A DNA stretch of 47,852 bases from Microcoleus sp. AS-A8. GTDB taxonomy: Bacteria > Cyanobacteriota > Cyanobacteriia > Cyanobacteriales > Coleofasciculaceae. The notes under the pieces were generated by a model, which worked only from the letters and a program-made list of their open reading frames with translations, had not been told where the DNA came from and ran no database searches. The position numbers and the translations under genes were made by a program. Numbering within the stretch: position 1 is the first letter of the stretch; every line of letters starts with the position of its first letter. Below are positions 16,955 through 35,300 of the stretch, in pieces. The stretch covers positions 1-47,852 of the forward strand of contig JAMPKV010000039.1 in assembly GCA_039962225.1 (NCBI GenBank), written 5' to 3'.

Positions 16955-17641
16955 TTAGACCATCAACAAACTATCAGTTGACGGGATAATTTCAGCTTCT
17001 TTTCTATAACTATTCACCCAATAAAGGATGATTGGCATGACTGATGTAGGAATGTCCTTAAACCATTCAACACCACCTTTTGCTGCTTTTCCCGTACTAT
17101 CAGTTAGCCTCTTGCTACTGAGTTGCTGATGAATGGTTCGCTCACATAAAGCTACCTGCTTTGTCCAAAGCGCAGTTAGCAGAATCGGTGGTTCTGAAAC
17201 AGCAGTTCTAAGACCAAGTTGCTGTTCAACTCTGTTGAGAATATTTTGCCCAGTCTGTCCTACTTTCAGTTTCGTGTCATAGCGATCAACTGCCCACCAA
17301 AGCATACCCTGTCTATGTTTTCCAGCGAGAACGTTATCTTCAAAAGTATAAATATAAATAAAACCGCTTCCATCTCCCACTAATGGATCAGAATAGCCTG
17401 TATTCCTAAGCTTTTCAAAACTCAGAGCATCTGTTAATACAGTAGGAGACTCAAAATAGTCAGTATTAAATGTTCTTTTAAGGCGGTTACATTTCTCTAA
17501 ATAATTCATTGAAGGAAAACCCTTCCAAACATAGGCAAAATCAGAAAGACTAAATCGAAAAACTCCCGGTGGAAGAGAAAGGCTATCAGTAATCTTAACC
17601 GCTGGAACATCATGCCAAATGTCTTCGATATTAAATGTCAT
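16955..17641 (-). CDS. GIY-YIG (T5orf172-type) nuclease
   Basis: This 228-aa protein has a C-terminal GIY-YIG nuclease domain of the T5orf172/MUG113 kind: GFIYIYTF (about residue 92), then KLKVGQTGQNILNRVEQQLG (about 125-144) with the conserved KxG and Arg. A CERTIHQQL helix and GGVEWFKD complete the fold. Such domains occur in phage, mobile-element and restriction nucleases. The N-terminal 85 residues have no domain I recognise. It is transcribed alone, convergent with the parM operon. The start is the only ATG giving the full frame. Confidence 0.75.
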   Translation of the reverse strand: MTFNIEDIWHDVPAVKITDSLSLPPGVFRFSLSDFAYVWKGFPSMNYLEKCNRLKRTFNTDYFESPTVLTDALSFEKLRNTGYSDPLVGDGSGFIYIYTFEDNVLAGKHRQGMLWWAVDRYDTKLKVGQTGQNILNRVEQQLGLRTAVSEPPILLTALWTKQVALCERTIHQQLSSKRLTDSTGKAAKGGVEWFKDIPTSVMPIILYWVNSYRKEAEIIPSTDSLLMV

Positions 17642-18226
17642 TTAGTCTTCTATCCTGGAACTAATTTTCTGTTTTCAGTGTCGCATTCCCCTTTTTCGTT
17701 CACCACCGTAAAAACACGGATGTTTTTTTGATTCCGCTTTCTTTAAGTTGAAACCAATTACCCCATGTTTACCCTTTGACCAATGATCTATTACTGCGAC
17801 TGATTCATCAGGAGACTTATAGCTCGTGTCAAGGGGTTTTAAGGATTGGGCAAACCCAATATGGGACTGTCGGGATACCTTAAGAAATTATTTTGTTATC
17901 ACATTGCTATAAAATTTTAAGCATGTGTCGAAATTTGAGGCAAGGAGATTTTAGGGACATAGATAAAATGATGATTTTTGGTACACCCGCCAGGAGCTAA
18001 AAGACCAGTTGAAGGTATGTTGGGTCGATGTAGCATCTATCGGTCGTTTTTTGGTACGCAGTTTAACCCCTTTATGGAAAAAAGAGGCTTACGGTTCTTG
18101 AGCATCATTGATGCAACCTGCCGAATCGGGTGTTGCTGCCAAAACAATAGGAGCGCTATCATCGGGTAAGCAACACAACATATAAATTGTGTTGTCTTAA
18201 GAACGACACAATGTAATAATTGAGTT
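17642..18226. other. Intergenic region upstream of the nucleotidyltransferase-like gene
   Basis: This is a 585-bp gap between divergent genes. It holds T-rich stretches (near 17724) and short frames without ribosome-binding sites or a recognisable family. The dyad at 18171-18194 is the main structured element. Promoters for both flanking transcripts must lie here, but no confident -35/-10 pair was assigned. Confidence 0.4.
18171..18194. promoter_or_regulatory. Candidate operator dyad before the 18.2-25.6 kb cluster
   Basis: CAACACAA (18171-18178) and TTGTGTTG (18187-18194) form a perfect 8-bp inverted repeat around an AT-only-but-one loop (CATATAAA). A further ACACAA half-site lies about 12 bp on (GACACAATG). 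It is about 30 bp before the ATG at 18227, a normal place for a repressor such as the XRE protein encoded in the cluster. Confidence 0.5.
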
Positions 18227-18670
18227 ATGATTCCGCCATTCAATCAAAATGGTCTTCTACCGCCAGGGATACATTTGGCTAATTGGCAGAACTTTGCCGA
18301 CCGATTCGGTACAACGCTCCATCGACAACACCTCCTTCTGGGGATGAAGTCGGGTCTGGAGGTTCTGCGAAGGGCAGGTTGTGGAATGGCTTATGTTGAC
18401 GGCAGCTTTGTAACGGAAAAGGAGCACCCCAATGACTTTGATATCTGCTGGGACATCACAGGAGTGGACTCAGACCTACTTGATCCAGTACTGCTGAAAT
18501 TCGACAAAGGTCGCTTTGCCCAGAAGATTAAATACTTCGGTGAATTTTTCCCAGCACAAGTAACCGAAAGTAGCACGGGAGTCGTTTTTTTAGAGTTTTT
18601 TCAGATTGATAAGGCAACAGGAAACCCGAAAGGTATTGTTGCCCTGAACCTGCGGGAGATATGGTCATGA
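18227..18670 (+). CDS. Nucleotidyltransferase-fold protein (DUF6932-like)
   Basis: This 147-aa protein has the signature of the polymerase-beta nucleotidyltransferase fold: AYVDGSFVTEKEHPNDFDICW (residues 55-75), that is a GS motif followed by D-x-D. It resembles small DUF6932-type proteins often found next to XRE or toxin-antitoxin regulators. It overlaps the next gene, an XRE/ImmA-IrrE protein, by 4 bp (ATGA), so the two are co-translated. It may be a minimal nucleotidyltransferase that modifies or inhibits a partner, or an antitoxin-like component. The catalytic state cannot be judged from sequence alone. It opens the eight-gene cluster. Confidence 0.65.
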   Translation: MIPPFNQNGLLPPGIHLANWQNFADRFGTTLHRQHLLLGMKSGLEVLRRAGCGMAYVDGSFVTEKEHPNDFDICWDITGVDSDLLDPVLLKFDKGRFAQKIKYFGEFFPAQVTESSTGVVFLEFFQIDKATGNPKGIVALNLREIWS

Positions 18671-20130
18671 TTAAGAATGAGCGGCAATACCGCATAACGA
18701 AAGCCCAAGTCGAAAAATTCTCGGATGCTGTGGCGCAGCTATCTGAGCGGCCAGATCAACATTCGCAGATCAATCCCATCTTGCGAAAAGCGGAGAGAGA
18801 AGCTCTAGAAAGCCAACTAGCAGAGCTGCGGGTTCAGCTAGAAGAATATGACGCTTTGCGCTCTGGTCAGAATGCCGTGCTTGAACTGGAATCACTGGAA
18901 GAATTGCCACGCGCACTCATCAAAGCACGTATTGCAGCAGGATTGACCCAAAAGGATTTAGCAGAGCGCCTCGGGCTGAAGGAACAACAGATCCAACGCT
19001 ATGAAGACACGGAGTATGCTTCCGCAAGCTTTTCTCGATTGGTAGAAGTGAGCCGAGCACTCGGAATTCAGGTACGTGAAGACATTCTTTTACCTAAAAT
19101 CTCGTCTGCTTATTTGCTCGACCGATTGAATCAAGCAGGTCTCGCTCACGATCTGATTTTGAAAAGATTTTTGCCTTCACTGCACGCGACGGATTCACAG
19201 ATAGAAAATGAAGAATCTGCTGGGAGTTTTGTTCTTCGTACAGCGACAGCATTGAAACGAGTATTTGGTTGGTCATGGGCTGATATTTTTAGTTCAAAAC
19301 CGCTGCAATTGAACACAGCCGCACTAGGCTCGGCACGCTTCAAAGTCAACGCTAACGCTAATGAACGACGGCTCAGTGCTTACACCGTTTACGCACACTT
19401 TCTGGCACTCCTTGTCCTGGACGCTACATTAAATTTACCAAAGAAGCCAATTCCTACAGACCCAACGCAGGTTCGGGAGGAAATTCGCTCCAAGTATGGC
19501 TCTCTAACTTTTGAGAATGCACTGCGCTACGTCTGGAGCTTAGGCATACCAGTCTTACCATTAAAAGATTCAGGTGCTTTTCATGGTGCTTGTTGGCGAG
19601 TGGGGGGACGCGATGTGATTGTTCTCAAACAACAAACTGACTTTCCAGCCCGTTGGCTTTTCGATCTCTTGCATGAGTTATATCACGCAGCGCAAGACCC
19701 ATCGCTTGACGATCGTGCCGTGATTGAAGCTGATGTAATGTCTCCAGAGCGCCGAGAGTCCAACGAAGAATTAGACGCCAGTGAATTTCCTGCTGATGTT
19801 GTACTCGAAAGCCGTGCATACGAGCTGTTTGAAATGTGCCTAGAGGCAGCAGGAAACAATGTTGCACGCCTCAAAGGGGTTGTTCCAAAAATTGCCAAGC
19901 AAGAGAATGTTCCGGTTGATGCACTTGCCAATCACGTAGCTTTCTGCTTATCGCTTATGGATAACAAAAATATCAACAATTGGTGGGGAACAGCAAACAA
20001 TCTCCAAGTTCGGGGAGAGAATCCTTGGAAGATTGCGCGTGACGTTTTTCTGGAGTACGCCGACTTTGATCGGCTCAATGAGGTTGATCGAGATCTTCTG
20101 TTACGAGCACTATCTGATATCAACAATTGA
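18667..20130 (+). CDS. XRE-family regulator fused to ImmA/IrrE metallopeptidase
   Basis: This 487-aa protein has a coiled-coil N-terminus (EREALESQLAELRVQLEEYD), an XRE helix-turn-helix (about residues 78-135, AAGLTQKDLAERLGLKEQQI) and a C-terminal zinc peptidase domain with HELYH at 336-340. Proteins of this architecture cleave repressors in response to damage or invasion, as with ImmR/ImmA and DdrO/IrrE, or regulate their own operons. ATG 18667 is preferred: GGGAG lies 8 bases upstream and it overlaps the previous stop as ATGA; ATG 18661 is also possible. It is a natural switch for the downstream enzymes. The candidate operator at 18171-18194 may be its target. Confidence 0.85.
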   Translation: MIKNERQYRITKAQVEKFSDAVAQLSERPDQHSQINPILRKAEREALESQLAELRVQLEEYDALRSGQNAVLELESLEELPRALIKARIAAGLTQKDLAERLGLKEQQIQRYEDTEYASASFSRLVEVSRALGIQVREDILLPKISSAYLLDRLNQAGLAHDLILKRFLPSLHATDSQIENEESAGSFVLRTATALKRVFGWSWADIFSSKPLQLNTAALGSARFKVNANANERRLSAYTVYAHFLALLVLDATLNLPKKPIPTDPTQVREEIRSKYGSLTFENALRYVWSLGIPVLPLKDSGAFHGACWRVGGRDVIVLKQQTDFPARWLFDLLHELYHAAQDPSLDDRAVIEADVMSPERRESNEELDASEFPADVVLESRAYELFEMCLEAAGNNVARLKGVVPKIAKQENVPVDALANHVAFCLSLMDNKNINNWWGTANNLQVRGENPWKIARDVFLEYADFDRLNEVDRDLLLRALSDINN

Positions 20131-20138
20131 GAGGAGTT

Positions 20139-20792
20139 ATGCCAGCGAAGCAATCACTGAAAGACAAAGTTAAATCCCTTGAAAGCAAGGTTACTTGCAG
20201 AAGTACGGATTGTAAAAACGACTTGCACTGCTTTTTACAAGCAAACTCAAAAAAATCTACTGATAAATTTGGTAAATGCCGTGAATGTGAGACAGAGCTA
20301 GTTGATTGGGAGCGGGTTCATAAACGGGATATTGGCGATATAAAGCATACTTTTGAAGCTCTCAAGCATGAAAAGATTCGACACCATTTTTGGCACATTG
20401 ACATCAACCAAGACCAAGGGGCAGTAAATCATGCTCTCAACAAGGGTCGGATCGACCTTCGTAAAGCTGCAACCCACAGACTTAGAAAGTATGTCGGCGA
20501 AGTGCATGAAATGTTGGATGGCAAAAAGCGCCCATATCGAGATGGTCAGCAAACTCCATATTCCGGTAACAGCATCTACTATGCTCAGCACGCTACAGCC
20601 TCCTGCTGCCGTAAGTGCGTTGAGTATTGGCATAACATTCCTCAAGGTAGAGATTTAACTGAGGATGAAATCGCATACCTCACTGACTTGGTCATGTTGT
20701 ACATAGAAGAGAAGCTGCCGCAATTGACAGACCAAGCACAGAAGACTCCACGGATACGGCGTCAACCCAAAAAAAATTCGTCTACTGAGTAG
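20139..20792 (+). CDS. Zinc-ribbon protein with DUF4186-like C-terminus
   Basis: This 217-aa protein has a Cys-rich N-terminus (C20, C25, C31, then CREC at 47-50) that could bind zinc. The C-terminal segment has the pattern ATASCCRKCVEYWH...NIPQGRDLTEDEI, then a helix ending YIEEKLPQL. I associate that pattern with DUF4186, a family of unknown function. The middle is rich in His and charged residues (HEKIRHHFWHIDINQDQG). GAGGAG precedes ATG 20139. It starts 8 bp after the ImmA/IrrE gene and 20 bp before the radical SAM gene, so it belongs to the same transcript. No catalytic role can be assigned. Confidence 0.6.
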   Translation: MPAKQSLKDKVKSLESKVTCRSTDCKNDLHCFLQANSKKSTDKFGKCRECETELVDWERVHKRDIGDIKHTFEALKHEKIRHHFWHIDINQDQGAVNHALNKGRIDLRKAATHRLRKYVGEVHEMLDGKKRPYRDGQQTPYSGNSIYYAQHATASCCRKCVEYWHNIPQGRDLTEDEIAYLTDLVMLYIEEKLPQLTDQAQKTPRIRRQPKKNSSTE

Positions 20793-20812
20793 TAGGGTAG
20801 GTAATAGTTTCA

Positions 20813-21820
20813 ATGGCAATCAACACAGAAGCATTATCAACTCGCTATCGAGCAGCATCAGTTGATCTAAGTAGCAAGCGTCTCTTAATCACAAACTTTC
20901 GGAACACTGAGCAGGAGAAGGATTTGAGTGAATCTCCTAACTGTGGTGGCATTGGGCGTATCCGACACTTCCGGCGCAATTTTGGCGGGTCTGGCTGGCC
21001 ACCAAACCCCTTACCTATCGACCCAGCTTGCAAGGTGCTTGGTCTGCCATCAATAGATATGATTCGGGCGCAGGTTTTCCAAAATGCTGCTTGCAACTGG
21101 CGTTGCTGGTATTGTTATGTTCCCTTTGAGTTGCTCAACGCCAACCCTGATTACTCAGAGTGGTTGAGTCCTGTCACTCTTGTCGATCGCTATCTCGACC
21201 AGCCTGATCCACCACCCATAATCGATCTAACAGGTGGTCAGCCAGATCTCGTTCCTGAATGGGTGCCCTGGATGATGGCTGAGATAAAAAGCCGTGGGCT
21301 TGAGCGCCAAGTCTACCTTTGGTCAGACGACAATCTTAGTAACGATTACTTCTGGCAATTTCTCTCTGACACGGACATTGAACTCATAGCTACATATGCC
21401 AACTACGGTCGCGTTTGCTGCTTCAAGGGTTTTAACGCCGAGTCGTTTGCGTTTAATACTCGTGCTGAACCTGCTCTCTTTGACCAGCAATTTGAGCTGA
21501 TGAGAAAGCTTTTGACGTTAGGCATCGATTTATATGCCTACGCCACATTTACAGCGCCATCGGGAGTCGGAATAGCAGACGATATGCGTCGCTTCGTTGA
21601 CCGTCTCCAAATGCTTGATGAAAACTTGCCACTGCGGACAGTTCCGCTCCAGATTCAGGAGTTCACGCCAGTCAAGGAACGTCTGAACCATGCCACCTCT
21701 GAAGCATTACAGAATCAACAAATTGCAATTGAAACCTGGCTTCAAGAGCTAGAGCGCCGATATTCCAGTGAAGAACGAGCCTGTAACATTGCCGATATAC
21801 CTCTTTGTGGAGGCAGATAA
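20813..21820 (+). CDS. Radical SAM enzyme
   Basis: This 335-aa protein has the iron-sulfur motif CNWRCWYC (C94, C98, C101, CxxxCxxC) followed by a glycine-rich strand LTGGQPDLV (about 149-157), as in radical SAM enzymes that bind S-adenosylmethionine. Extra cysteines occur upstream (SPNCGG, PACKVLG) and at the extreme C-terminus (RACNIADIPLCGGR); these might ligate an auxiliary cluster or metal. The substrate is unknown. It does not match queuosine-pathway QueE by length or motif order. The neighbours (methyltransferase-like, ASCH, kinase, dGTPase) suggest a nucleotide or nucleic-acid base as substrate. The stop is 2 bp before the next ATG. Confidence 0.8.
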   Translation: MAINTEALSTRYRAASVDLSSKRLLITNFRNTEQEKDLSESPNCGGIGRIRHFRRNFGGSGWPPNPLPIDPACKVLGLPSIDMIRAQVFQNAACNWRCWYCYVPFELLNANPDYSEWLSPVTLVDRYLDQPDPPPIIDLTGGQPDLVPEWVPWMMAEIKSRGLERQVYLWSDDNLSNDYFWQFLSDTDIELIATYANYGRVCCFKGFNAESFAFNTRAEPALFDQQFELMRKLLTLGIDLYAYATFTAPSGVGIADDMRRFVDRLQMLDENLPLRTVPLQIQEFTPVKERLNHATSEALQNQQIAIETWLQELERRYSSEERACNIADIPLCGGR

Positions 21821-21822
21821 CT

Positions 21823-23124
21823 ATGAAAATAACTCAAACTGAAGCACAGATGTTTGAAGATTCTGTTGACAGCTGGGTGCTTGATGCGCTCGCGTCTGGT
21901 GTCACTACATTTGAGCAATTACTGACCTTGCTGCCTGGTGTATATCCATCTATCGCCCTTAGCTCTCTCCAACGACTTGCATCTGCACAGAGGATTTCCA
22001 CAGAAGTCATGAAAGAGCTGGTCAAACCAGCGAAGAGTAAATTAGAGCAGTCAACTCGTTCATATCACCAGATTTCCTTACCTGTTCCCCATCCCCTTGA
22101 CTACGATTGGCGGTTTAGTGATGCGGCCGTTGAAATTTTGTTGAATGAGTGCAAGGAACTGACTCCTTTATATAGTACGATTGTACTGCTCGGTACCCCT
22201 AGCTTACTTCAGATGGGCATTGAACAGTCTTACCCACGCCAGCTAGTATTGCTTGAAGCCAGCTCGACGATAACAGCGAGTCTTACTCAAGCCGTACCTA
22301 ACGTGCAGGTAGTGCGGTGCGACGTAATCAAGGAGCCACTACCAAAACTCTCAGCAGAAGCTGTTGTTCTCGATCCACCGTGGTATCCAGAGCATATTCA
22401 ATCTTTTCTCTGGGCAGCTTGCCAACTTTGCAAAATCGGTGGATATATCTTAATTAGTATGCCTCCCTTCGGTACCAGACCTGGTATTGAGCGGGAATGG
22501 ATAAATACGCTGGACTGGACACAGAAAATCGGTCTTACCCTGCTCCGTTTGGATAAGATGGCTTTGCCTTATGTCACACCTTTATTTGAACTCAACGGAC
22601 TCAAGGCAGAAGGGGTTCATACAGTTCCAAGAGAATGGCGACGTGGCAATCTAGCAGTGTTCTCGCGTACCCATCAGGCTGAAGTCCCACGCCCAGCAGC
22701 CGTGCCACAAGAAGACGAATGGATTGAGGAAGTGCTGCTTGGCGTAAGGGTGCGTATCCGGCAGCCAAATCTATCAGGCTTTGCAGACCCATCTCTGGTA
22801 TCCGTTGTACCCAGAGATGTGCTTCAATCAGTGAGCCGGAGAGATTCGCGCCGGAGGTTGGCTGATGTTTGGACTTCTGGGAACCGCATCTTTGCTTGTC
22901 AGGGGCGGGGTGTGCTTCAGCAAATTCTGCGGGCAGTCGCAGTGGGGCGATCGCCTTACGAAGCGGTAGCTTTGGCTCTGGAGCGCCCGTTAAGCTCTAG
23001 GGAAACCGAGCTTGTCTCCCACGCAACCAATCAGATCATAAACCTTGTTAGTACAGAGCAAAAGGAGAATTTACTCTTTGGGGAACAGCGGAACTATACA
23101 AACCTCTCTCTTGCCGCTGGTTGA
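21823..23124 (+). CDS. SAM-dependent methyltransferase-like protein with DPPWY motif
   Basis: This 433-aa protein has an N-terminal winged-helix-like region (1-70) and a Rossmann domain: DYDWRFSDAAVEIL (93-106), VLLGTPSLLQMG in place of the classical glycine-rich loop, and AVVLDPPWY at 180-188. DPPWY is the amino-methylase motif IV, and the fold also resembles aminopropyltransferases of the BpsA/DUF43 type (DWRF, GTPSL), so either base N-methylation or aminopropyl/amine transfer is possible. A helical C-terminal domain (about 330-433) has no known match. ATG 21823 is chosen because GGAGG lies 9 bases upstream. It overlaps the ASCH gene. Confidence 0.7.
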   Translation: MKITQTEAQMFEDSVDSWVLDALASGVTTFEQLLTLLPGVYPSIALSSLQRLASAQRISTEVMKELVKPAKSKLEQSTRSYHQISLPVPHPLDYDWRFSDAAVEILLNECKELTPLYSTIVLLGTPSLLQMGIEQSYPRQLVLLEASSTITASLTQAVPNVQVVRCDVIKEPLPKLSAEAVVLDPPWYPEHIQSFLWAACQLCKIGGYILISMPPFGTRPGIEREWINTLDWTQKIGLTLLRLDKMALPYVTPLFELNGLKAEGVHTVPREWRRGNLAVFSRTHQAEVPRPAAVPQEDEWIEEVLLGVRVRIRQPNLSGFADPSLVSVVPRDVLQSVSRRDSRRRLADVWTSGNRIFACQGRGVLQQILRAVAVGRSPYEAVALALERPLSSRETELVSHATNQIINLVSTEQKENLLFGEQRNYTNLSLAAG

Positions 23125-23629
23125 TCAACTACGGTCAGCTGTGCAGGGCGATCCTTTCTGGGAAAGTTATCTGAAGCAGTTGACATCACCTGCATCAGTT
23201 CCCTTCGCGCTTCACTTAGCCATTTTGGTAGAGCCATATCTCCAATTTATTTTGGATGGGAAGAAAACAGTGGAGTCAAGATTTTCCACACGTCGTTTTG
23301 CTCCCTACAACCGTGTAGATAAAGGTGACGTTGTGTTGTTGAAACAATCTAGTGGTCCCATTATTGGGGTATGTCAGGTTGCTTATGCTTGGTTTTATCA
23401 GTTAGATCCTGAATCGTGGCGAACTATTAGGGAAGATTTTGCGGTAGCTCTATGTGCACAAGATCCTATTTTTTGGGAGGAGCGTGAGGCAGCATCATTT
23501 GCTACCCTAATGCGAATCCGACACGTAAAGTCTATAGAACCTATCAAGTTTGCTAAACGCGATCGTCGAGGTTGGGTAGTTCTGCACGAAAGTTCTGGTC
23601 AACTACAACTTGATCTTGGGAATTTATGA
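23078..23629 (+). CDS. ASCH-domain protein
   Basis: The ASCH core is clear: FALHLAILVEPYLQFILDGKKTVESR (a K-T-x-E-x-R motif), then GDVVLLKQSSGPIIGVCQV, and RRGWVVL at the end. ASCH folds belong to the PUA superfamily, bind RNA or modified nucleotides, and some hydrolyse acetylated cytidine. TTG 23078 has AAAGGAG 9 bases upstream and gives 183 aa; an upstream TTG at 23045 would give 194. The gene overlaps the methyltransferase-like gene by 47 bp and its stop overlaps the kinase ATG (ATGA). This tight coupling argues that it acts with those enzymes, perhaps as the substrate-recognition component. Confidence 0.8.
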   Translation: MGNSGTIQTSLLPLVDQLRSAVQGDPFWESYLKQLTSPASVPFALHLAILVEPYLQFILDGKKTVESRFSTRRFAPYNRVDKGDVVLLKQSSGPIIGVCQVAYAWFYQLDPESWRTIREDFAVALCAQDPIFWEEREAASFATLMRIRHVKSIEPIKFAKRDRRGWVVLHESSGQLQLDLGNL

Positions 23630-24177
23630 AACCAATTGTTCTCGCCTTTGCTGGCAGTATCGCCAGTGGCAAGTCAACACTTTCCACTAAAGTAGCTGAA
23701 ACTCTTCACTGGCCCCGTGTCAGTTTTGGAGATTATGTTAGGTCTGTTGCTCGGCTTAGAGGATTTCCGGAGTTGCGGGAAGTCTTACAGACTGTTGGTG
23801 CTGAACTGGTGGAGAATGATGTGAAGCAATTCTGCCGTGCAGTATTGGCTCAAGTCAATTGGCAACCGGGACAACGACTGGTAATCGATGGCATCCGTCA
23901 TGTAGAAGTTCTCACGACATTACGTCAACTGGTTGCCCCGATGGATCTGTATCTCATTTTCATAGTGGTTGATGAATCTGTACGAGCAGTTCGGTTACTT
24001 GAGAGAGAAAAGAGTAATCCTACGAGTTATCAGCTTCTAGAACTGAATTCTACTGAACAGCAGGTGAAAGGTTACTTGGAAAATATGGCTGACTTGGTTG
24101 TTGATAGCACTTGCTCAATCGAAGAGGTAACGAAAGAAGTTACTAGCTGGCTTCAATCACAATGTGTTAAAAACTAA
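23626..24177 (+). CDS. Small P-loop kinase (nucleotide/nucleoside kinase-like)
   Basis: This 183-aa protein has a Walker A GSIASGKST (residues 10-18) and a DYVRSVARLRGFPELREVLQ lid-like segment. A conserved RLVIDGIRHVEVLTTLR follows, then an arginine-bearing VRAVRLLEREK. The layout is that of AAA_18/dephospho-CoA-kinase-like and dNMP-kinase-like enzymes. Kinases of this size also phosphorylate modified deoxynucleotides in phage hypermodification pathways. Substrate specificity cannot be read from the sequence. It starts 4 bp inside the ASCH stop and ends 35 bp before the dGTPase gene. Its place in the cluster suggests nucleotide chemistry. Confidence 0.75.
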   Translation: MKPIVLAFAGSIASGKSTLSTKVAETLHWPRVSFGDYVRSVARLRGFPELREVLQTVGAELVENDVKQFCRAVLAQVNWQPGQRLVIDGIRHVEVLTTLRQLVAPMDLYLIFIVVDESVRAVRLLEREKSNPTSYQLLELNSTEQQVKGYLENMADLVVDSTCSIEEVTKEVTSWLQSQCVKN

Positions 24178-24212
24178 GAAACCACGTTTTTCACTGGAAG
24201 CAGGGATTAATC

Positions 24213-25637
24213 ATGGGTCATCAGAAGATGCGATGGGATCAATTGCTCTGTGAGGAGCGTCAAGGACATGAGCAACATCCTGATGAAACGCGACAAGAGC
24301 GTAGTCAATTTGAGCGCGATTTTGACAGAATTATTTTTTCGGAATCTTTGAGAAGGCTCAAAGATAAAACACAAGTTTTTCCAGTTACAGATAACGACCA
24401 CGTTCATAATCGCTTGACACATAGTTTAGAAGTTTCTTGCATAGGCAGATCCTTGGGCCGAATTGTGGGAGATAAAATTATTAAAAAATATAGAGATGGG
24501 CATCTAAAAGAATTGATAGAAAAAGGTTTAAATGAAGCAAGCTTTGGCGCACTTGTTCAAACGGCTTGCCTTGCTCATGATATAGGTAATCCTCCTTTTG
24601 GTCACTCTGGTGAAAATGCTATACAATCCTGGTTTTATTCAGAAACAGGAAAACAGCATTTGGAGACAATGAGTGAAGGAGAAAAAGAGGATTTAGAATG
24701 GTTTGAAGGGAATGCTCAAGGATTTAGAATTCTCACAACATCTGAACGACAAACTAAACGTAAGAGCTTACAGCTAACTTTTGCTACTCTTGCCACTTTT
24801 ACTAAGTACCCCAGAGAATCTCTGGTTAAGGATAAAGATTTATTAAAAAATCAAGAAAGAGAAAGTGTTAAATATGAAGAATCTAAACGTAACAAATACG
24901 GATTTTTCCAATCTGAGAAAGAGATTTTTAAAGAAGTTGCAGAAAAAACAGGACTTATCCCGCTTGGAAACAATGACACAGCTTGGTGGTGCAGACATCC
25001 GCTAGCTTTCCTGGTAGAAGCAGCTGATGATATCTGCTATCGAATCATGGATCTTGAGGATGGCTTTAATATGGGCTATATCGATTATCAAATGACAAAA
25101 GAACTGTTGCTTAATATTGCCGGGAGCAAATACGAAAAAGATTTAAAAAATGGGAATAGCCAATCTGAGAGGCGAGAAGATATAAGATTTCTACGTGGAA
25201 AAGCTATTAATAAGCTGATAGATGTATCTACAAACACGTTTATTGAAAATGAAGAAGGGTTACTTACTGGTGAATTTGATAAGCCTTTACTACACACCGT
25301 TGAGGATAAAATTAAGGAAATTAAAAAAGAAATAAAAGCAAAAGTTTATAACTGTCAGGAAGTTCTCTCAATAGAAATAGCAGGATATGATGTCATTTCC
25401 GCTTTGTTAGATGAATTTATGACAGCAATTAATGATGATATCAGTTCAAGAGACCCAAGAAATAAGAAAGGTGAAAAAGTTAATAAATTATTGTCTGAGA
25501 GCTTCTTTGAAGGACAGCTTGGTAGTAGGAGATATTTGAACGCCTTGAAGGTTATTGATTATATCGCCGGAATGACAGATTCTTATGCTGTAACATTATT
25601 TAGGCAAATTAAAGGTATTTCTTTACCTCGCAGATAA
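24213..25637 (+). CDS. dgt: dGTP triphosphohydrolase (dGTPase), HD family
   Basis: This 474-aa HD-domain enzyme hydrolyses dGTP, or dNTPs more widely, to nucleoside and triphosphate. Metal-binding residues are visible: RLTHSLEV (H70), ACLAHDIGNPPFGHSGE (H122-D123, GH 130-131) and AADDICYRIMDLEDG near residue 271. An N-terminal RDFDRIIFSESLRRLKDKTQVF matches the family start. dGTPases act in dNTP balance and, in several bacteria, in anti-phage defence by draining dNTP pools. The gene is markedly more AT-rich than its upstream neighbours, which suggests separate acquisition. It ends the co-directional cluster. Confidence 0.9.
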   Translation: MGHQKMRWDQLLCEERQGHEQHPDETRQERSQFERDFDRIIFSESLRRLKDKTQVFPVTDNDHVHNRLTHSLEVSCIGRSLGRIVGDKIIKKYRDGHLKELIEKGLNEASFGALVQTACLAHDIGNPPFGHSGENAIQSWFYSETGKQHLETMSEGEKEDLEWFEGNAQGFRILTTSERQTKRKSLQLTFATLATFTKYPRESLVKDKDLLKNQERESVKYEESKRNKYGFFQSEKEIFKEVAEKTGLIPLGNNDTAWWCRHPLAFLVEAADDICYRIMDLEDGFNMGYIDYQMTKELLLNIAGSKYEKDLKNGNSQSERREDIRFLRGKAINKLIDVSTNTFIENEEGLLTGEFDKPLLHTVEDKIKEIKKEIKAKVYNCQEVLSIEIAGYDVISALLDEFMTAINDDISSRDPRNKKGEKVNKLLSESFFEGQLGSRRYLNALKVIDYIAGMTDSYAVTLFRQIKGISLPRR

Positions 25638-26102: not shown

Positions 26103-28058
26103 TTACACAGTGTCCATCGCGTCTGTGGAAATTCCTTTAAGCGGCTCTTTCAATGTCACATGATTCTTAAGTGTGTCGTCTAGCTCCTTACATACCGTCT
26201 CGAAAGATTTGGTGGCTGGCTTCTCGTGGGATTGGGTATCAAATTCTACAATAACGGGGGGCGTATAGGTGTTGGAACCTGTCTCAAAATAAAAATGATA
26301 GGAAATACGGGTTGCCACCGGGATACTGATGGTGTTGACTGTAAAGTCTGTCTTACTAGCAATCGCAACTAAATTCAGTTTCCACGCTTGGTTTTTAGTT
26401 AACAGCCGCTTTATCTTTGTCTCATAACTGAGCATCTCTGTATTTGCCGCTGCTGTTCCTAGTACCAAGTTTTCACGGATTTGTTGAGGCTGGTTGGTTC
26501 TTTGAATTAGGTCTTGTGATGTTTGGGATAGATCGCCAACGTGCGTCTGCCCAATGCTGAAAGCTACCAAGTGAAGCCATTCCCACGATAACGGGGTGGG
26601 GCATTTAAACCCTAATTTGTTTGCTGCCTCATTCGGGCTAATGTTATCCATCACCTTGGTTTGCGTGATGTTGCGCTTGCTGCCGGTGGGAAGATCACCA
26701 TAGCCATGCCCAACAGCAAAAGACATCTGGTTGTTTGTGTCTTCTGTATGAGGAATACCCTCAGATGGATACTGAACTAATCCACCCATCCCGCTTGTGA
26801 CCATTTCCATAGTAGTGCCACCGTTTGGGTTATACCGGAAGGGGAAGGGAGGGACATAAGAAGTGTCTGTACTTGTATCCAGAGGTGCTGCTCCAACCAA
26901 CTGCCGCGCTTCATTGATAGTGTAGGTTTTTGAAGAGTCATCATGAAGGTTTTGGATGTTATCCATCTGCTGTTGGTTCAAGCCAGCCATCACCTTGTAG
27001 TTGCTTCTCAGCTTACCCGGTTGATAGCTTTCTATTAAACGCTGAATGGGGGGTGCCGAACTCAGATGCCCTTTCTGCTGCACTACATGAGTCAGCTCAT
27101 GGGCAATCAACTCCTGCCCCCCGCGACTCCCCGGCTCATACGCCCCCTGCCGGAAGAACACATCCTGCCCCGTCGTAAACGCTTTCGCTTGAATCGATTG
27201 ATTCAACTGGTCAGACTGAGCATCTGTATGTACCCTCACCTCACTAAAATCCGCCCCCATCGCCTGCCCCATTGACTCTTGCAGACTTGCTTCTAAAGGC
27301 TTTCCACTTCCTTTTGCACTATTTATGGCAGATTCTAAATCCGTTGATGCTTCCCCTCCCGCGCTCACTTCTCGACGTTGAAGGATTGGCTTAGTCTGAA
27401 ATCCCTCTGGCTTTTCTTCCTGCCGTTGGAGAGCGGTAATCTCTGGTTTCGCCTGTACTTCCTCTTGATTTTCTTCCTGACGCTGTACCGACTGTCCTTG
27501 ATTTGACTGGGCGGTTGTGGGGGCATGAATCTGTTCTACCACCTGGGAGGCAACCCGATCTGCTTCCTGTTCGTACTCGTCTCCTGGCTGCCCAATGGTC
27601 AACTTGGCCTGGAGCGGCGATGCTAACGACTGTTGCTCAAAGTTAAAGAGCGATCGCTGTTCCAGAAGCGGCACCCTTGGTGTCCCAGTCCTCCACATGA
27701 GCTGTAGTTGTGGGGCATCATGTTCCCCATGCGGATTAACCGGAATATTGGCAAAGTTATGACCAAACCGCTTTCCCTGTTCCCTTTTCTGCCCCCAGAG
27801 CTCTGCCATCTCCGCGTTCACCCCCCCCAACCGCTCTTGCTCCTCCGGCGTGATGGTGCCATACTTCTCCTTGAGTTCCAGCTTGTGCTCCTCAAACTTA
27901 TTCTGCTCAAACGGCTCATTCTCAATGTCTTCTGGCGTGGGCTGTCCCAACGGCCTCAACTGTACCGGGGTCTCAAACGGGCGAACGCCAAACCGAGTTG
28001 TCGGCTTTGGGGGGCGAGAACTCTGATCTTGAAATGAGTGCGCTCTTTGGAATCCCAT
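26103..28058 (-). CDS. DUF4157 protein, candidate injection-system cargo with nuclease-like C-terminus
   Basis: This 651-aa protein has three parts. The N-terminus (1-150) is Pro/Gln-rich and polar. KLTIGQPGDEYEQEADRVA (152-170) and a DUF4157 domain (about 253-330) follow, the latter with FSEVRVHTDAQSDQLNQ and HELTHVVQQ (H320-E321, H324), the zinc-peptidase-like signature. DUF4157 is a recurrent domain of cargo proteins loaded into extracellular contractile injection systems, where it may self-cleave. The C-terminal ~300 residues have no domain I know. The stretch WEWLHLVAFSIG... (about 492-503) with RENLVLGTAAANTEML (528-543) recalls the His/Asn motifs of beta-beta-alpha-metal nucleases. No sheath, tube or baseplate gene is in the window, and no immunity gene was identified beside it. 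Confidence 0.75.
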   Translation of the reverse strand: MGFQRAHSFQDQSSRPPKPTTRFGVRPFETPVQLRPLGQPTPEDIENEPFEQNKFEEHKLELKEKYGTITPEEQERLGGVNAEMAELWGQKREQGKRFGHNFANIPVNPHGEHDAPQLQLMWRTGTPRVPLLEQRSLFNFEQQSLASPLQAKLTIGQPGDEYEQEADRVASQVVEQIHAPTTAQSNQGQSVQRQEENQEEVQAKPEITALQRQEEKPEGFQTKPILQRREVSAGGEASTDLESAINSAKGSGKPLEASLQESMGQAMGADFSEVRVHTDAQSDQLNQSIQAKAFTTGQDVFFRQGAYEPGSRGGQELIAHELTHVVQQKGHLSSAPPIQRLIESYQPGKLRSNYKVMAGLNQQQMDNIQNLHDDSSKTYTINEARQLVGAAPLDTSTDTSYVPPFPFRYNPNGGTTMEMVTSGMGGLVQYPSEGIPHTEDTNNQMSFAVGHGYGDLPTGSKRNITQTKVMDNISPNEAANKLGFKCPTPLSWEWLHLVAFSIGQTHVGDLSQTSQDLIQRTNQPQQIRENLVLGTAAANTEMLSYETKIKRLLTKNQAWKLNLVAIASKTDFTVNTISIPVATRISYHFYFETGSNTYTPPVIVEFDTQSHEKPATKSFETVCKELDDTLKNHVTLKEPLKGISTDAMDTV

Positions 28059-28786: not shown

Positions 28787-29038
28787 ATGCCCGTAACCGA
28801 ACCGTTATCAACTGCCGTACTCGTGAAGGAAATCCGGAAGCGCCTGGGGCTGACTCAAGTAGAGTTTGCCCAAGTTCTGGGGGTGTCGTTTCAGTCTGTG
28901 AATCGCTGGGAGCGGGGTAAGACAAAGCCTTTGCCGATCATACTGAAGCAGATTAAGGTGATGGTGAAGGAGATGGGAGAGAGCGGTTCAGATTTGCTGG
29001 AACGCTATGAAAGCGAGAGAGGAGGTAGCGCAAGGTGA
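28787..29038 (+). CDS. XRE-family helix-turn-helix regulator of the DISARM operon
   Basis: This 83-aa protein is a compact HTH: VLVKEIRKRLGLTQVEFAQV then LGVSFQSVNRWERGKTKP (residues 12-49), followed by a helix. Its stop overlaps the GTG of drmD (GTGA at 29035), so it is translated with the defence genes. Small XRE proteins often repress defence operons until phage infection; that role is inferred. The likely operator is in the preceding 730 bp, where GGGGTG dyads occur. Confidence 0.85.
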   Translation: MPVTEPLSTAVLVKEIRKRLGLTQVEFAQVLGVSFQSVNRWERGKTKPLPIILKQIKVMVKEMGESGSDLLERYESERGGSAR

Positions 29039-32000
29039 CAAACGTTGAAGCCGGACAAATTGTTCGTGTTCGCTCGCGCCAGTATCTCGTGGAAGACGTG
29101 GTGCCTAAACCCTCTCCAACCGAAGATACCTTGGTACGTCTTTCCTGTCTCGATGACGATGCTCTGGGAGAAGCACTGGAGGTTCTCTGGGAGAGGGAAG
29201 TTGATGCTCAGTATATAGGCGCAACCTCATGGGAGTCCATTGCTAATCGGGGTTTTGACCAGCCACGCCTCTTTTCCGCCTACCTTCATACACTGCGCTG
29301 GAACTGCGTCACTTCAACTGAGCCGAAGCTTTTCCAGGCTCCCTACCGCGCTGGTATTGAAGTAAAAGCCTATCAGCTTGAACCGCTTCGCAAGGCACTG
29401 CTCATGCCTAGAGTCGGTCTTTTCATTGCTGACGATGTAGGTTTGGGGAAAACCATTGAGGCGGGACTCATCCTGCGCGAGATGCTGATGCGGCAAAAAG
29501 TCAGGCGCGTTGTTATCTCCTGTCCACCATCAGTAGTTCGACAGTGGCAAGAGGAAATGGAGAGCCGCTTCGGACTCACCTTCATGATTTTTGATCGCGA
29601 ATTTGTCGCTGCCCGTCGTCAAGAACGCGGTTATGGGATTAACCCTTGGACAACTCACACTCGCTTTATTATTTCTCATGCCCTGCTGCGGGATGAGACT
29701 TATGCGGCCCCCTTACGGGATTGGCTTGGGGACTTTTCCGCTGGGTCTATGTTAATCCTCGACGAGGCTCACAACGCGGCTCCGGCAAGTGGTGCTAAGT
29801 ATGCCATTGATTCGCAGCTCACGCGAACGGTTCGAGAGATAGCGCCTCGCTTTGAACACAAGCTGTTTCTCTCTGCCACTCCCCACAACGGTCATTCCAA
29901 CAGCTTTGCCGCCCTACTGGAAATCCTCGACCCTCAGCGCTTTTGCCGAGGCGTGCCCGTGCGCGATCGCAAACTTCTCGATACAGTCATGGTGCGCCGC
30001 TTGAAGCGAGATTTGCGGGAGATTGGCGATGACTTTCCCGAACGTCAAGTCATTCCCATTGTTATTGATGACCTTCCAGACGATGCACCAGAGCTAAAGT
30101 TATCTCGACTGTTGCAAGAGTACCGCGATGAGCGTGAAGAGCGTCTGAGGGACGAATCTCGGTCAAAACAGGCGGCAGCAATGCTTGTTATCACCTCACT
30201 CCAGAAGCGTCTGCTTTCTTCGATTGAGGCATTTGCTCGTACCTTAAAAGTACATCGCACGGCTTTAGAACGGCAAGCCACAAAGCGTTCTAAAATTCGT
30301 CTTGAGAATCTGCCCTTACTTTCAGAGTCGCCAGGTTCTGATGACGATCGCGCCGCACTCTCTGAAGAGGAAGTACAGGCAGAAGAAGACGCTCAAATGG
30401 AAGCTGCCAGTGGGTATGCTACCGCAGATGGTCTTACGGAGCGCGAATTGAAAATTCTGGAAGAGATGACCGAAGTGGCTAATGGGGTTCGCAACCAGAA
30501 AGACCCCCGCGTTGCAAGGCTCATAAAATGGATTCGTGAAAATCTGTGTCCTAATCTGGGTCAACCCGATGCGGCGTGGACAGAACGGCGGGTACTGATT
30601 TTTACCGAATATACTGATACTAAGCGATATCTTCAGCAGCAGCTTCAGTCTGCGATCGCAAATTCCAACCGAGAACGCGATCGCATCGATGTCTTCCACG
30701 GTGGCATCAGCGAAGACCGCCGTGAGGAAATCAAACGAGCCTTTAACGCTGACCCCTCTCGGCATCCCCTCCGCATTCTGATTGCGACTGACGCGGCACG
30801 GGAAGGGGTGAATCTACAAAACCACTGTGCCGATTTGTTTCACTTTGATGTACCCTGGAATCCCAGCCGCATGGAGCAGCGTAACGGGCGCATCGACCGC
30901 AAACTCCAGCGATCGCCTATCGTTCGCTGCCATTATTTTGTTTTCCCGCAACGGGCTGAAGACCGCGTACTGGATGTGTTGGTCAAAAAGACGGCAACCA
31001 TTCAAAAAGAATTGGGCACTCTTTCGCCAGTAGTGCAGAAAAACCTAACGAGGTTGCTCGACAAAGGCATCCGTCACAATGAAATCGAGGGAGTGACGGC
31101 TTCTATCGAGCAGGTTAACCAACTCGATCTTGCAGCCACATCCAAGACTAAAGTCATCAATGAAGAATTGGAAGACACTCGACTGGGCAAACAGGAACTC
31201 GTCCAGCAGACCGAACAGCTTCAAGAGATGCTGAAATCTTCGCGGGACTGGTTGGGACTCGACGATCGCCATTTTCGGGATGCAGTATCGGCTTCGCTAG
31301 AAATCCTGGGAGCTAATCAGCTCAAGGCGATTGATGCCAATGAAGCGGCTAAAGACCCGACTACAGCTCAGTGGGAGATTCCAGCACTCGACCAGCGCTT
31401 AGGAGCAGACCCGACTTGGACTGCTACCCTTGATACGCTGAGAAAACCCAGACAAAGGGGGCAAAAGCCTTGGGAATGGCGGAGGGAAGCTCCCATTCGT
31501 CCGGTTATTTTTCGCGACCCCGGTACTCTCGATAGCGATGCGGTACACCTGCATTTGGAACACCGGGTCGTGCAACGCCTGTTGGGACGCTTTCTCGCTC
31601 AGGGGTTTTTGCACGACGAATTAACCCGTGCTTGCGTATGTCTGACCGATGACCCAGTTCCCAAAGTAATCGCTTTAGGTCGCCTGTCCCTGTATGGAGA
31701 GAGGGCTTCGCGGTTGCATGATGAAGTAATTGCCGTCGCCGCTGAGTGGATCGACCCCATAAACCGAGGGCGGAAAAAACTGCGACCTTTGGGTGAAGGG
31801 GAAAAAGAGAACGTTTTGGAATTGCTGGAAAAATCCCTGGCTTCTCCCCGTTTGCGAGAGGTTGCGGATACGATTAGGAATCGTCTTAAGCAAGCGGCGG
31901 CTCAGGATATTGAGGAACTCATTCCCCATCTGAATCATCGCGCTGAAGTGTTGGCAGAACGGGCGAAAAAGAAACTGACCGCACGAGGAGAGAAGGAAGC

Positions 32001-32262
32001 GGTTGAGATGAGGAAAATTTTGGAGACACAGCGCGATCGCATTCTTCAACGTCAAGAGGAAACGAAAGCTGTCCAGTTGTCTTTATTCCCCGAAGAGGAA
32101 CAACGTCAGTTATCTGCGGATCAACGGTATTGGCACAAACGTCTTGAGGCATTGGCTATTGAGTTGGTGCAAGAACCTGCACGCATTGAAGCGACGTATC
32201 AAGTTAAGGCAATACGAGTTGAGCCAGTGGGATTGATGTATCTATATCCGGTTTCCGGTTAG
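29035..32262 (+). CDS. drmD: DrmD, SNF2-type helicase of class 1 DISARM
   Basis: This 1075-aa SF2 helicase carries GQIVRVRSRQYLVEDV at the N-terminus. The ATPase core has DDVGLGKTIEAG (Walker A, about residues 132-143), LILDEAHNAAP (DEAH, about 242), LSATPHNG, and the second RecA domain with IATDAAREGVNLQNHCADL, PWNPSRMEQRNGRIDR. The C-terminal ~400 residues are helical and charged. DrmD marks class 1 DISARM and works with the methylase and DrmA/B to restrict incoming phage DNA. The start is GTG 29035, overlapping the XRE stop. A stable hairpin (32268-32286) separates it from the methylase gene. Confidence 0.9.
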   Translation: MTNVEAGQIVRVRSRQYLVEDVVPKPSPTEDTLVRLSCLDDDALGEALEVLWEREVDAQYIGATSWESIANRGFDQPRLFSAYLHTLRWNCVTSTEPKLFQAPYRAGIEVKAYQLEPLRKALLMPRVGLFIADDVGLGKTIEAGLILREMLMRQKVRRVVISCPPSVVRQWQEEMESRFGLTFMIFDREFVAARRQERGYGINPWTTHTRFIISHALLRDETYAAPLRDWLGDFSAGSMLILDEAHNAAPASGAKYAIDSQLTRTVREIAPRFEHKLFLSATPHNGHSNSFAALLEILDPQRFCRGVPVRDRKLLDTVMVRRLKRDLREIGDDFPERQVIPIVIDDLPDDAPELKLSRLLQEYRDEREERLRDESRSKQAAAMLVITSLQKRLLSSIEAFARTLKVHRTALERQATKRSKIRLENLPLLSESPGSDDDRAALSEEEVQAEEDAQMEAASGYATADGLTERELKILEEMTEVANGVRNQKDPRVARLIKWIRENLCPNLGQPDAAWTERRVLIFTEYTDTKRYLQQQLQSAIANSNRERDRIDVFHGGISEDRREEIKRAFNADPSRHPLRILIATDAAREGVNLQNHCADLFHFDVPWNPSRMEQRNGRIDRKLQRSPIVRCHYFVFPQRAEDRVLDVLVKKTATIQKELGTLSPVVQKNLTRLLDKGIRHNEIEGVTASIEQVNQLDLAATSKTKVINEELEDTRLGKQELVQQTEQLQEMLKSSRDWLGLDDRHFRDAVSASLEILGANQLKAIDANEAAKDPTTAQWEIPALDQRLGADPTWTATLDTLRKPRQRGQKPWEWRREAPIRPVIFRDPGTLDSDAVHLHLEHRVVQRLLGRFLAQGFLHDELTRACVCLTDDPVPKVIALGRLSLYGERASRLHDEVIAVAAEWIDPINRGRKKLRPLGEGEKENVLELLEKSLASPRLREVADTIRNRLKQAAAQDIEELIPHLNHRAEVLAERAKKKLTARGEKEAVEMRKILETQRDRILQRQEETKAVQLSLFPEEEQRQLSADQRYWHKRLEALAIELVQEPARIEATYQVKAIRVEPVGLMYLYPVSG

Positions 32263-32267
32263 TAGGC

Positions 32268-32286
32268 GCAAGGGTAATACCCTTGC
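32268..32286. repeat. Intergenic hairpin between drmD and drmMI
   Basis: GCAAGGGT (32268-32275) and ACCCTTGC (32279-32286) form a perfect 8-bp stem with an AAT loop directly after the drmD stop. No T tract follows, so it is more likely a message-stabilising or processing hairpin than a terminator. Confidence 0.55.
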
Positions 32287-32348
32287 CCTTACAAAAACCT
32301 GTATTGCATCCAAAATCGAACCGCTATAATCCTAAACTCTGACATCAC

Positions 32349-35300
32349 ATGGCTGATCCAGAAATCCTCAGACATAAAGAATGGTTGGGCTTCCTTCAAC
32401 CTGTTGGTCTAGTCGTATCTCCTCCGGCGTTAGTTAAGGCGCAGGCGGTGGTGAACCGTAATGTCATCGACCTGCAACAAACCCTACAAGATATTGTTAG
32501 TGAAGGAGATAATCAGACCAAGGAACGCTCTTGGATTCCTGATTTCTCAGAGTTTGCCGTTGAAGTTCTGGAATGGGAACCGGATGATTTAGAGTCTGAC
32601 CCGGAACGGCTGACCCAATTAGAGGTAGTACTGCCGGAGTACGGGGAAGTTTTGACTCCCAACTATGCTGTCTCTAACCCCGATGGGGATGGCTGGTTAA
32701 TGTTAGTGCAGGTGATTCCTCCTGGTAGTGACTTCGATGAGGTTGAGCCTGCTGTTGCTCACTCGACAACTCGTTGGCACGCCAGTCCCCAAGCGAAATT
32801 TGAGCGGCTGCTGCGGGAAAAAGAGATTCCCATCGGACTACTTGACAACGGGACAGATTTACGCTTAGTCTATGCTCCACGGGGGGAGTCATCGGGACAC
32901 CTAACTTTTCCCATTCAGGCGATGTGCGAGGTATCGGGTCGCCTTATTCTTGGTGCGATGCATATGCTGCTCTCGGCTGATCGCATCTTTAATATGCCGA
33001 GCGATCGCACTCTCTGGGCCTTATTACGCGAAAGCCGCAAGTATCAAGCAGAAGTTTCGACTAAGTTATCCGAGCAGGTACTCGATGCGCTTTGGGAATT
33101 GCTGCGCGGGTTCCAGACGGCAGATGAGGCGAGTTGTGGACGGTTGCTGGGTGAGATTGCCAAGGAAGACCCCCAGCACATCTACGGTGGACTGATTACC
33201 ACCCTGCTGCGATTGGTGTTCCTGCTTTACGCGGAAGATGAGGGGTTGATGCCCCAGGATACCGTTTACACCCGAAATTACTCGGTTACTGGACTTTACG
33301 ATCGCTTGCGGGAGGATGCCGGGAATTATCCCGACACGATGGATCAGCGCTATGGCGCTTGGGCGTGGTTGCTGAGTCTGTTCCGCGTCGTCTACGACGG
33401 CGGGGGTCACGCTCAGATGTATTTGCCAGCGCGTCACGGGCAGTTATTTGACCCGAATGAGTACTCGTTTCTGGAAGGTCGTCCTCCCAAGACAAACTAT
33501 CAAGAAATTGAGCGCATCGAACCGCCTCGCGTGTCGGATGGTGTGATTCATCGGGTACTGCAAGGGTTACTCGTCCTCGACGGAGAGCGTCTTTCTTACC
33601 GTTCTCTGGATGTGGAGCAGATTGGCTCGGTCTACGAGGCGATTATGGGCTATGAGGTAGAACGGGCAACTGTACCTTCTATCGGGGTTTGGAGCAAACC
33701 CAAAAGTTCTAAGTCCTCAGTCACGGTTGTGGTGAATGTGGATGAGGTGCTGGCGACGAAACCAAGCGATCGCGCCAAGCTTCTGAAGGACATCGCTGGC
33801 TGTGAGATTGCAGGCAAGGCGCTATCTGAATTGAAGGACGCGAAGACAACAGATGATGTGGTTGCCGCGTTGGGTCGCAAGGTGTCGCCCCGCACGCCCA
33901 CTTTAATGCCTCTTGGTTCGTTGTACCTGCAACCCGGAGAGGAGCGCAGGCGATCGGGTTCTCATTATACGCCCCGTGCGCTGACGGAACCGATTGTTCG
34001 CACCACTCTCCGACCTGTGCTGGAAGCTTTAGGAGAGCGTCCTACGGCAGAACAGATTCTCAATCTTAAGGTGTGCGACCCAGCAATGGGTTCGGGTGCG
34101 TTTTTGGTGGAAGCGTGTCGTCAGTTGGCAGAGGAGTTAGTCGCGGCTTGGGATAGAGAGGGAAGGCTACTGGAAATTCCTTCGGATGAAGAACCGTTAC
34201 TCCATGCGCGGCGGTTGGTGGCACAGCGCTGTCTGTACGGGGTGGATAAAAACCCGTTTGCGGTGAATTTGGCGAAGTTGTCGCTGTGGTTGGTGACGCT
34301 GGCGAAAGCTCATCCTTTTACGTTTTTAGACCATGCTCTCAAGACGGGTGATTCGCTGGTGGGGTTGACTCGCGCTGAAATTGGCAAGTTTGTTCAGGCA
34401 TCCAATATCTCGAATGCACCTGTGTTTTCGCTGTTCAAGGAGCAGGTAAATCAAGCCAAGATATACCGGGATGAGATTGGTAAGTTAGGGGATGGTGATG
34501 ATAACGAAAAGCGCGATCGCTTTGAAAAGGCAGAGCAGGAATTAGAGGAGGCACGACTGACCGGAAATGTTGCCATTGCTTCGTTCTTTGCTGCTGATAA
34601 GGATAAGGCACGAAAGGAAAAAAGAGAAGAGTTTTCCACGAAGGTAAATTATTGGAAATCAGGCATTGTCAACAAATTGGAACTAGAAGGCATTGCTCAG
34701 AGTTTGCAGAATTTAGAAAAACCTGTAATCCCGTTTAATTGGGAGATTGAATTTCCAGAGGTGTTTGAGCGGGAAAATCCGGGGTTTGATGCGATTGTAG
34801 GAAATCCACCATTTCTAACAGGAAGTAGGATTTCAACGAACTTTGGTGCTGGTTACCTTGCTTGGCTTTTAGAAATCCACCCTGAATCACACGGAAATGG
34901 GGATTTAGTTGCACATTTTTTCCGGCGAGCATTCACTATCTTACGCAAGGGAGGATGTTTTGGGTTAATTGCCACAAATACAATTGCACAAGGTGATACT
35001 CGAACAACTGGATTACGCTGGATTTGTCTTAATGGTGGGACAATCTATCATGCAGTAAAGAGGCTCAAGTGGACTGGAGTAGCTGCGGTTCTAGTGAGCT
35101 TAATTCATGTAGTCAAGGGTCAACATTCTAAGGTTTACCTACTTGATGGACGTGAAGTACATACTATTTCTGCCTTCCTTTTTCACACGGGTGGAAGTGA
35201 GAACCCCATGCCCCTCATGAATAATGCTAGTAAAAGTTTTTTGGGTTCAAAAATTTATGGTCAAGGATTCGTCTTTGATGATGATGATAGTAGAGCCAAT

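Follow-up and report, generated by a model that had tools for sequence, protein, structure and literature searches.

PIN-GNAT-EVE and GNAT-EVE operons hold ASCH domains and often AAA_17 ATPases, according to the part of their description available to us (PMC7641849). In the branched-chain polyamine synthase BpsA, a GDDD motif positions decarboxylated S-adenosylmethionine, as stated in the accessible portion of that report (PMC12979288). Some of the genes considered here are listed, uninterpreted in the available part of the description, within the 18,401 bp that Tolypothrix PCC 7712 has as an insertion relative to PCC 7601 (PMC9679502). We analysed a contig of Microcoleus sp. AS-A8 (JAMPKV010000039.1; 47,852 nucleotides, the whole of which is called the window) that carries an operon with these parts: a nucleotidyltransferase-like gene (NT), a gene fusing an XRE helix-turn-helix (HTH) domain to an ImmA/IrrE-like metalloprotease (XRE-ImmA), and genes for a DUF4186 protein, a radical S-adenosylmethionine (SAM) enzyme, the DPPWY protein, an ASCH protein and a P-loop kinase, followed by a dGTPase gene.

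The first seven of these genes form a discrete conserved system, of whose existence we are far surer than of its function. The gene set, its conservation and covariation, its presence on mobile elements, the covariation of its operator with a recognition helix and the fold of the DPPWY protein are computed here. Tentatively, at slightly less than an even chance, we read the locus as an inducible mobile nucleotide-modification system, probably directed against invaders; its substrate, reaction order, switch release and defensive role are predictions. Of the sequence-only reading of this DNA, the distinct co-occurring gene set, the BpsA-like fold and the switch have stood, whereas a core role for the dGTPase and aminopropyl transfer have not.

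Conservation and spread of the seven genes

Genome contigs were scanned with the radical SAM alignment, giving 88 relatives, the best 80 of which were kept. Among these best 80 of 88, 79 have a named phylum; they fall in 15 phyla and include one archaeal locus (L019), in a Nitrososphaerota (thaumarchaeal) metagenome-assembled genome (MAG). Counting covered 85 loci: that of the window, five on plasmids and 79 of those kept in the scan, a near-copy (L011) and the cousin loci described below having been dropped. Gene counts are based on the 66 loci, window included, with more than 3 kb on both sides. The kinase gene is present in 65 of them, ASCH in 64, XRE-ImmA in 62, DUF4186 in 61, DPPWY in 60, NT in 50 and dGTPase in 5, and 45 of the 66 have the full seven-gene core. 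By profile searches of all open reading frames (ORFs), the order in most loci is NT, XRE-ImmA, DUF4186, radical SAM, DPPWY, ASCH, kinase, although in some the set is divided between both strands. Several of the genes also occur fused: ASCH to kinase (L023, L026), DPPWY to ASCH (L053, L060), XRE-ImmA to kinase (L046) and ASCH to DUF4186 (L021).

Since the loci are anchored on the radical SAM gene, these counts measure linkage to it, and plasmid searches serve as the reverse test. With radical SAM, ASCH or kinase as the query, exactly 7 of 72,556 plasmid records match, and the seven are identical: four are cyanobacterial, one is from Rhizobium and two are from Roseovarius. Six of the seven are typed conjugative. 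The DPPWY query matches the same seven and four more distant records. With DUF4186 there are 48 matching records, of which 7 align with at least 80% of the query length; the seven system records rank first. Pairwise distances of all 21 gene pairs are correlated, with r between 0.57 and 0.87 against a permutation maximum of 0.23, a correlation to which shared host descent contributes. Co-occurrence of the radical SAM, DPPWY and ASCH genes across genomes, which the sequence-only reading had proposed as a check, is thus conserved across phyla; shared loci, gene order and covariation show that the seven genes are not adjacent by chance. In a tree of 86 radical SAM rows, 79 of which have a named phylum, the phylum labels need 29 changes, compared with 54.8 when shuffled, so the spread is part vertical and part mixed, with binning errors in draft genomes possible. 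We read the system as self-contained and horizontally mobile.

Operator and predicted repressor

Tandem palindromes can be seen by eye upstream of the cyanobacterial operons, and across 72 loci the arms of the best upstream palindrome average 8.0, compared with 5.4 for shuffled sequences. When ACACAAC-N6-GTTGTGT is sought with at most 2 mismatches in 14 positions, from -200 to +40 of the first gene, it stands before 52 of the 53 NT-type loci, including that of the window. Elsewhere in 1,195,100 bases there are three sites: two are at the NT starts of L034 and L073, loci sorted by rule into the other class, and the third is at window position 36868. The motif was derived from the same loci, so the test judges its placement and not an independent motif. 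It is near-invariant from the thaumarchaeal MAG to cyanobacteria and proteobacteria. In the other locus class, 8 of 17 loci have a different palindrome, TTAACAT-N2-ATGTTAA. Where NT is missing, a small DUF4160-like gene takes its position (12 of 12 by eye; Pfam in 4 of 4 tested).

The recognition helix of the XRE domain changes as well. With NT present it reads KEQQIQRYE, with Q109, Q110 and Q112 each kept in 60 of 61, whereas in 17 loci without NT, not quite the same 17 as in the palindrome scan, it is mostly TPQTISRIE. A palindromic operator before the first gene that covaries with the recognition helix is what an autorepressor should show, and because the two vary in step, the XRE domain is predicted, very likely correctly, to bind the ACACAAC-N6-GTTGTGT operator. 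The proposal that XRE-ImmA is a switch over the operon is backed by this joint change. The window protein matches HTH_3 above cut-off (2.2e-9) and Peptidase_M78 weakly, below cut-off (0.009); HExxH is kept in 76 of 78 related XRE-ImmA ORFs, which identifies an XRE-ImmA/IrrE regulator by its HTH and HExxH. In NT, G59-S60 and D70-x-D72 are kept in 39 of 39. Together these two genes would form the switch, in which the XRE domain would repress the operon from its operator and the ImmA-like protease domain would probably lift repression upon stress or invasion.

NT and XRE genes also form pairs on other plasmids (L095-L098), with no adjoining enzyme cassette in the stretches fetched. Their two genes are like the first two of the system, although the second is a short XRE gene in two of the four. 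L096 and L097 have the related palindrome TTACAAC-N6-GTTGTAA and the helix KAQQxQRYE; L095 and L098 have no such palindrome. These pairs look toxin-antitoxin-like, as would fit a distinctly unlikely alternative in which the enzymes modify or repair RNA (tRNA) under a module of that kind. METTL5 and PH1948, which rank directly behind BpsA in the fold list of the DPPWY protein, favour it too, as does the general binding of RNA by PUA/ASCH domains reported in the available part of one survey (PMC7641849). Against it, the accessory proteins described below belong to dNTP metabolism, and the kinase profile matches nucleoside monophosphate kinases.

Enzymes and their predicted chemistry

The kinase keeps its Walker GK in 32 of 32. 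A PDB profile search returns adenylate-kinase-type chains; among the 60 chains listed the matches are to nucleoside monophosphate kinases, and the profile matches adenylate and UMP-CMP kinases and AdkA-like proteins. The ASCH protein keeps K63, R68, K160, D162 and W166 in 48 of 48, with E or D at position 66. In the DUF4186 protein, C19, C24, H29, C46, C49 and CCRxC are invariant across 58 aligned; its AlphaFold model has a pLDDT (predicted local distance difference test) of 90.6, and structure comparison finds no close PDB fold. E. coli YneG belongs to this family, for which no function is known.

The radical SAM protein of the window matches Pfam Radical_SAM below cut-off (3.5e-5), and the superfamily motifs C94, C98, C101 (CxxxCxxC) and G141, G142 (GG) are present in 67 of 67. 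It is improbable, in our estimate, that it acts as viperins do, making a chain-terminating or toxic nucleotide that the kinase charges and that ASCH or DPPWY detoxifies in the host. Weak viperin-model matches in 49 of 67 members (best 2e-5) lean that way, as do matches of the kinase to VakA (7.5e-5) and to a dCTPase defence model (1.5e-5). All such scores, however, are far below the family cut-offs: the window protein reaches 14.5 bits with viperin model NF038283, for which membership takes at least 180. Comparable weak matches to ArsS, HxsB, QueE and MoaA show superfamily kinship only.

The DPPWY protein has a weak N6-adenine methyltransferase match. Compared with known structures, as the sequence-only reading had advised for DNA methylases and BpsA, it adopts the two-domain fold of BpsA (PF01861; 6j27, 5xnc). 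PF01861 itself is matched (E<=0.1) by 2 of 50 members, the better of them at 0.0046, which does not place the protein in that family. The string GDD[DE] is absent from all 50; where GDDD maps by eye (124-127), positions 125-127 have no Asp in the 50 members (one has Glu at 126), and G-[TAM]-P-[TS] is commonest. DPPWY thus shares a fold with BpsA but differs from it in lacking GDDD, in near-absent family matches and in genomic context. Aminopropyl transfer, put forward from the sequence, is therefore less likely than the fold suggests, the motif being needed in BpsA. The lack of GDDD also counts against a small-molecule biosynthesis cluster (a nucleoside antibiotic or polyamine-like product), a very improbable reading to which the BpsA fold would otherwise lend itself. 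Sets of radical SAM and kinase genes are found in natural product clusters. However, none of the 25 most frequent flank families, out of 134, is a transporter family, and a spread over 15 phyla with one operator would be unlike secondary metabolism.

The dGTPase is a cyanobacterial addition and not, as had been supposed, part of the system proper. It lies near the core in 5 of the 66 loci (the window, L003, L014, L015 and L016), all cyanobacterial and in L003 on the opposite strand, and near the dropped cyanobacterial near-copy L011. The window protein reaches 196.6 bits with the anti-phage dGTPase model NF041026, whose cut-off is 400. Seven other loci (L045, L049, L061, L063, L077, L030 and L021) have a dCTP-deaminase-like gene (Pfam in 4 of 4 tested), five times between DUF4186 and radical SAM and twice elsewhere. 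The encoded proteins bear a C-terminal hydrophobic stretch. In several of them what we take to be the catalytic glutamate seems to be arginine, suggesting a sensor. A DUF763 gene follows the kinase in four alphaproteobacterial loci (L004, L059, L071, L078; Pfam for one).

The accessory dGTPase and dCTP-deaminase-like genes, together with the cousin loci, point to nucleotide chemistry, and so do the nucleotide kinase, the ASCH protein and the DPP-motif transferase. Genes 3 to 7 would most likely make and handle a modified nucleotide or deoxynucleotide. The radical SAM and DPPWY enzymes would change a nucleotide or its base, the kinase would phosphorylate the modified nucleotide for use, and ASCH would bind or hydrolyse the product, while the accessory proteins would reduce the level of the competing normal dNTP or sense it. 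Action against invaders seems the most likely role.

Several observations weigh against this account of an inducible nucleotide-modifying defence. Matches of the radical SAM protein to the viperin, ArsS, QueE and MoaA models are weak and far below cut-offs, and ASCH might act either as a base reader or as a hydrolase, for instance of N4-acetylcytidine. No DPPWY gene was found in six of the 66 loci (L022, L032, L036, L042, L051, L056), and in the thaumarchaeal locus, where the kinase is on the opposite strand, DPPWY is divided over two ORFs, so that the DPPWY step may be dispensable in some copies. In L034 and L040, whose genes are split between strands, the search for the operator yields no site beyond the NT/DUF4160 end, leaving the enzyme half, on the other strand, without a detected operator; control of all genes is thus not universal. 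No regulon was found beyond the operon in its own genome. The association with defence comes from few neighbours, with no control set.

Layout, neighbourhood and related systems

Features of the operon are listed in the table below. The eight plus-strand genes are as tightly packed as first described, every overlap or gap being 35 bp or less, and Pfam and other family models match their proteins, several of them below cut-off. NT and XRE-ImmA overlap by 10 bp; XRE-ImmA ends at 20130, ahead of the DUF4186 ATG at 20139. Gaps of 20 bp and 2 bp precede the radical SAM gene and the DPPWY ATG. The ASCH start falls within the 3' end of the DPPWY ORF, ASCH and kinase share 4 bp, and 35 bp separate kinase from dGTPase.

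Features of the operon in the window
Feature	Position	Strand	Basis
Operator 1, palindrome ACACAAC-N6-GTTGTGT with one mismatch (core 18173-18192)	18171..18194		motif scan
Second, weaker palindrome up to the start codon of the first gene	18203..18227		by eye; aligned with cyanobacterial second sites
Nucleotidyltransferase-like DUF6932, first gene of the putative switch module	18227..18670	+	PF22014 2.9e-36
XRE helix-turn-helix and ImmA/IrrE-like metalloprotease fusion, predicted operator-binding repressor	18661..20130	+	HTH_3, HExxH, recognition helix
Zinc-ribbon and DUF4186 core	20139..20792	+	PF13811 1.1e-26
Radical SAM enzyme, distinct subfamily (CxxxCxxC, DDNLS, CxKG)	20813..21820	+	Pfam, motifs
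DPPWY protein, BpsA-fold class I transferase without GDDD motif	21823..23124	+	fold comparison
ASCH (PUA-like) protein; open frame from 23045	23078..23629	+	PF04266 0.0013, just below cut-off
P-loop nucleotide-kinase-like protein	23626..24177	+	PF13238 (AAA_18) 2.1e-11
dGTPase, accessory in some cyanobacterial copies, outside the conserved core	24213..25637	+	NF002205 1.4e-147, above cut-off

We take the window to be plasmid-like, from ParA/ParB-like ORFs recognized by eye at 1622-3302. Just upstream of the operon, on the minus strand, lies a gene for a T5orf172-domain protein (16955-17641). Downstream of the dGTPase, the HELTHVVQQ motif of a large minus-strand ORF (26103-28058) presumably marks a resemblance to DUF4157. 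The DISARM genes DrmD, DrmMI, DrmA and DrmB follow (28787-46026). DrmD is preceded by a small XRE gene, and further ORFs, which we assume to be XisH/XisI-like, lie between DrmMI and DrmA.

Among the 136 nearest flank proteins of the loci are phage integrases (5), IS110-type transposases (3), TniQ (2), AbiEi (2), DUF763 (3), a class II prokaryotic Argonaute (1) and a type IIG restriction-modification protein (1). Restriction genes in a few flanks would suit another use of a modified base, namely hypermodification that marks mobile-element or host DNA as self, is read by ASCH and serves to protect from restriction rather than to kill invaders. PUA/ASCH-superfamily domains are predicted or shown to read modified bases, according to the part of the source at hand (PMC7641849), and accessory enzymes that remove dNTPs would be in keeping with the exchange of a normal base for a modified one. 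We nevertheless think this unlikely. No nuclease family is common by the core, HNH domains occurring in at most 3 of the 136 proteins, and the operon repressor suggests induction rather than constant marking. Hypermodified DNA is best known in phages, yet neither 50,697 phage records nor a contig scan of viral genomes in IMG/VR yielded a relative of the radical SAM protein.

Four plasmids of Rhizobiales and Rhodobacterales carry the distant DPPWY homologues (28-30% identity; tblastn E 9e-19 to 2e-15) and thereby the cousin loci L007-L010. The gene next to DPPWY encodes a PUA-like-metallophosphoesterase fusion, as Pfam shows for both of the loci tested. In three of the four, the kinase profile, built without the cousins, matches an ORF of 533-542 amino acids at 1e-14 to 1e-16; Pfam shows an AAA_18-adenylosuccinate synthetase fusion in the one tested, and two are annotated as adenylosuccinate synthetase. 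DUF7002 then follows in 2 of 2 tested. L007 has no kinase match in the stretch fetched. The cousins thus share DPPWY and kinase homology and a PUA-like domain with the system, but have an adenylosuccinate-synthetase-like ligase and a phosphoesterase in place of its radical SAM and DUF4186 genes. DPPWY, kinase and PUA-like domain therefore recur with other chemistry, which suggests a modular class.

It is possible, though we hold it somewhat short of likely, that a radical SAM enzyme and a BpsA-fold transferase build a new nucleotide in a phylum-crossing immune or modification system kept silent by a single-protein repressor-protease on its operator, and that this system belongs to a wider class with exchangeable chemistry, whose cassettes would join common DPPWY, kinase and PUA parts to radical SAM or adenylosuccinate-synthetase chemistry. 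If the new nucleotide is real, immunity or DNA marking would gain a further chemistry. The compact, repeatedly transferred operon combines a DUF4186 protein with a radical SAM enzyme of a distinct subfamily and with a BpsA-like enzyme whose setting does not resemble that of polyamine synthesis, and its sharp operator offers a direct handle on the system.

PADLOC-DB 2.0 gives single-gene or generic matches only (dGTPase 6.7e-76, PDC-M63A 1.1e-11, RmrA HTH, mad2, VakA and dCTPase) and, in line with the sequence-only reading, no named system with this gene set; literature searches found no description of it. Since no known system with this set turned up in these searches, we judge the system to be categorically new. 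By gene content, as far as the available part of the source describes them, PIN-GNAT-EVE operons resemble it in having ASCH, often a small AAA_17 ATPase and sometimes an XRE protein, in their defence-like character and in presumed contact with modified bases; they have GNAT acetylation, EVE and PIN where the present system has radical SAM, DUF4186, a BpsA-fold enzyme and XRE-ImmA (PMC7641849). Prokaryotic viperins with VakA-type kinases likewise pair a radical SAM CxxxCxxC enzyme with a nucleotide kinase, from which the system described here differs by its viperin scores, by extra conserved N-terminal and CxKG motifs, and by five more genes.

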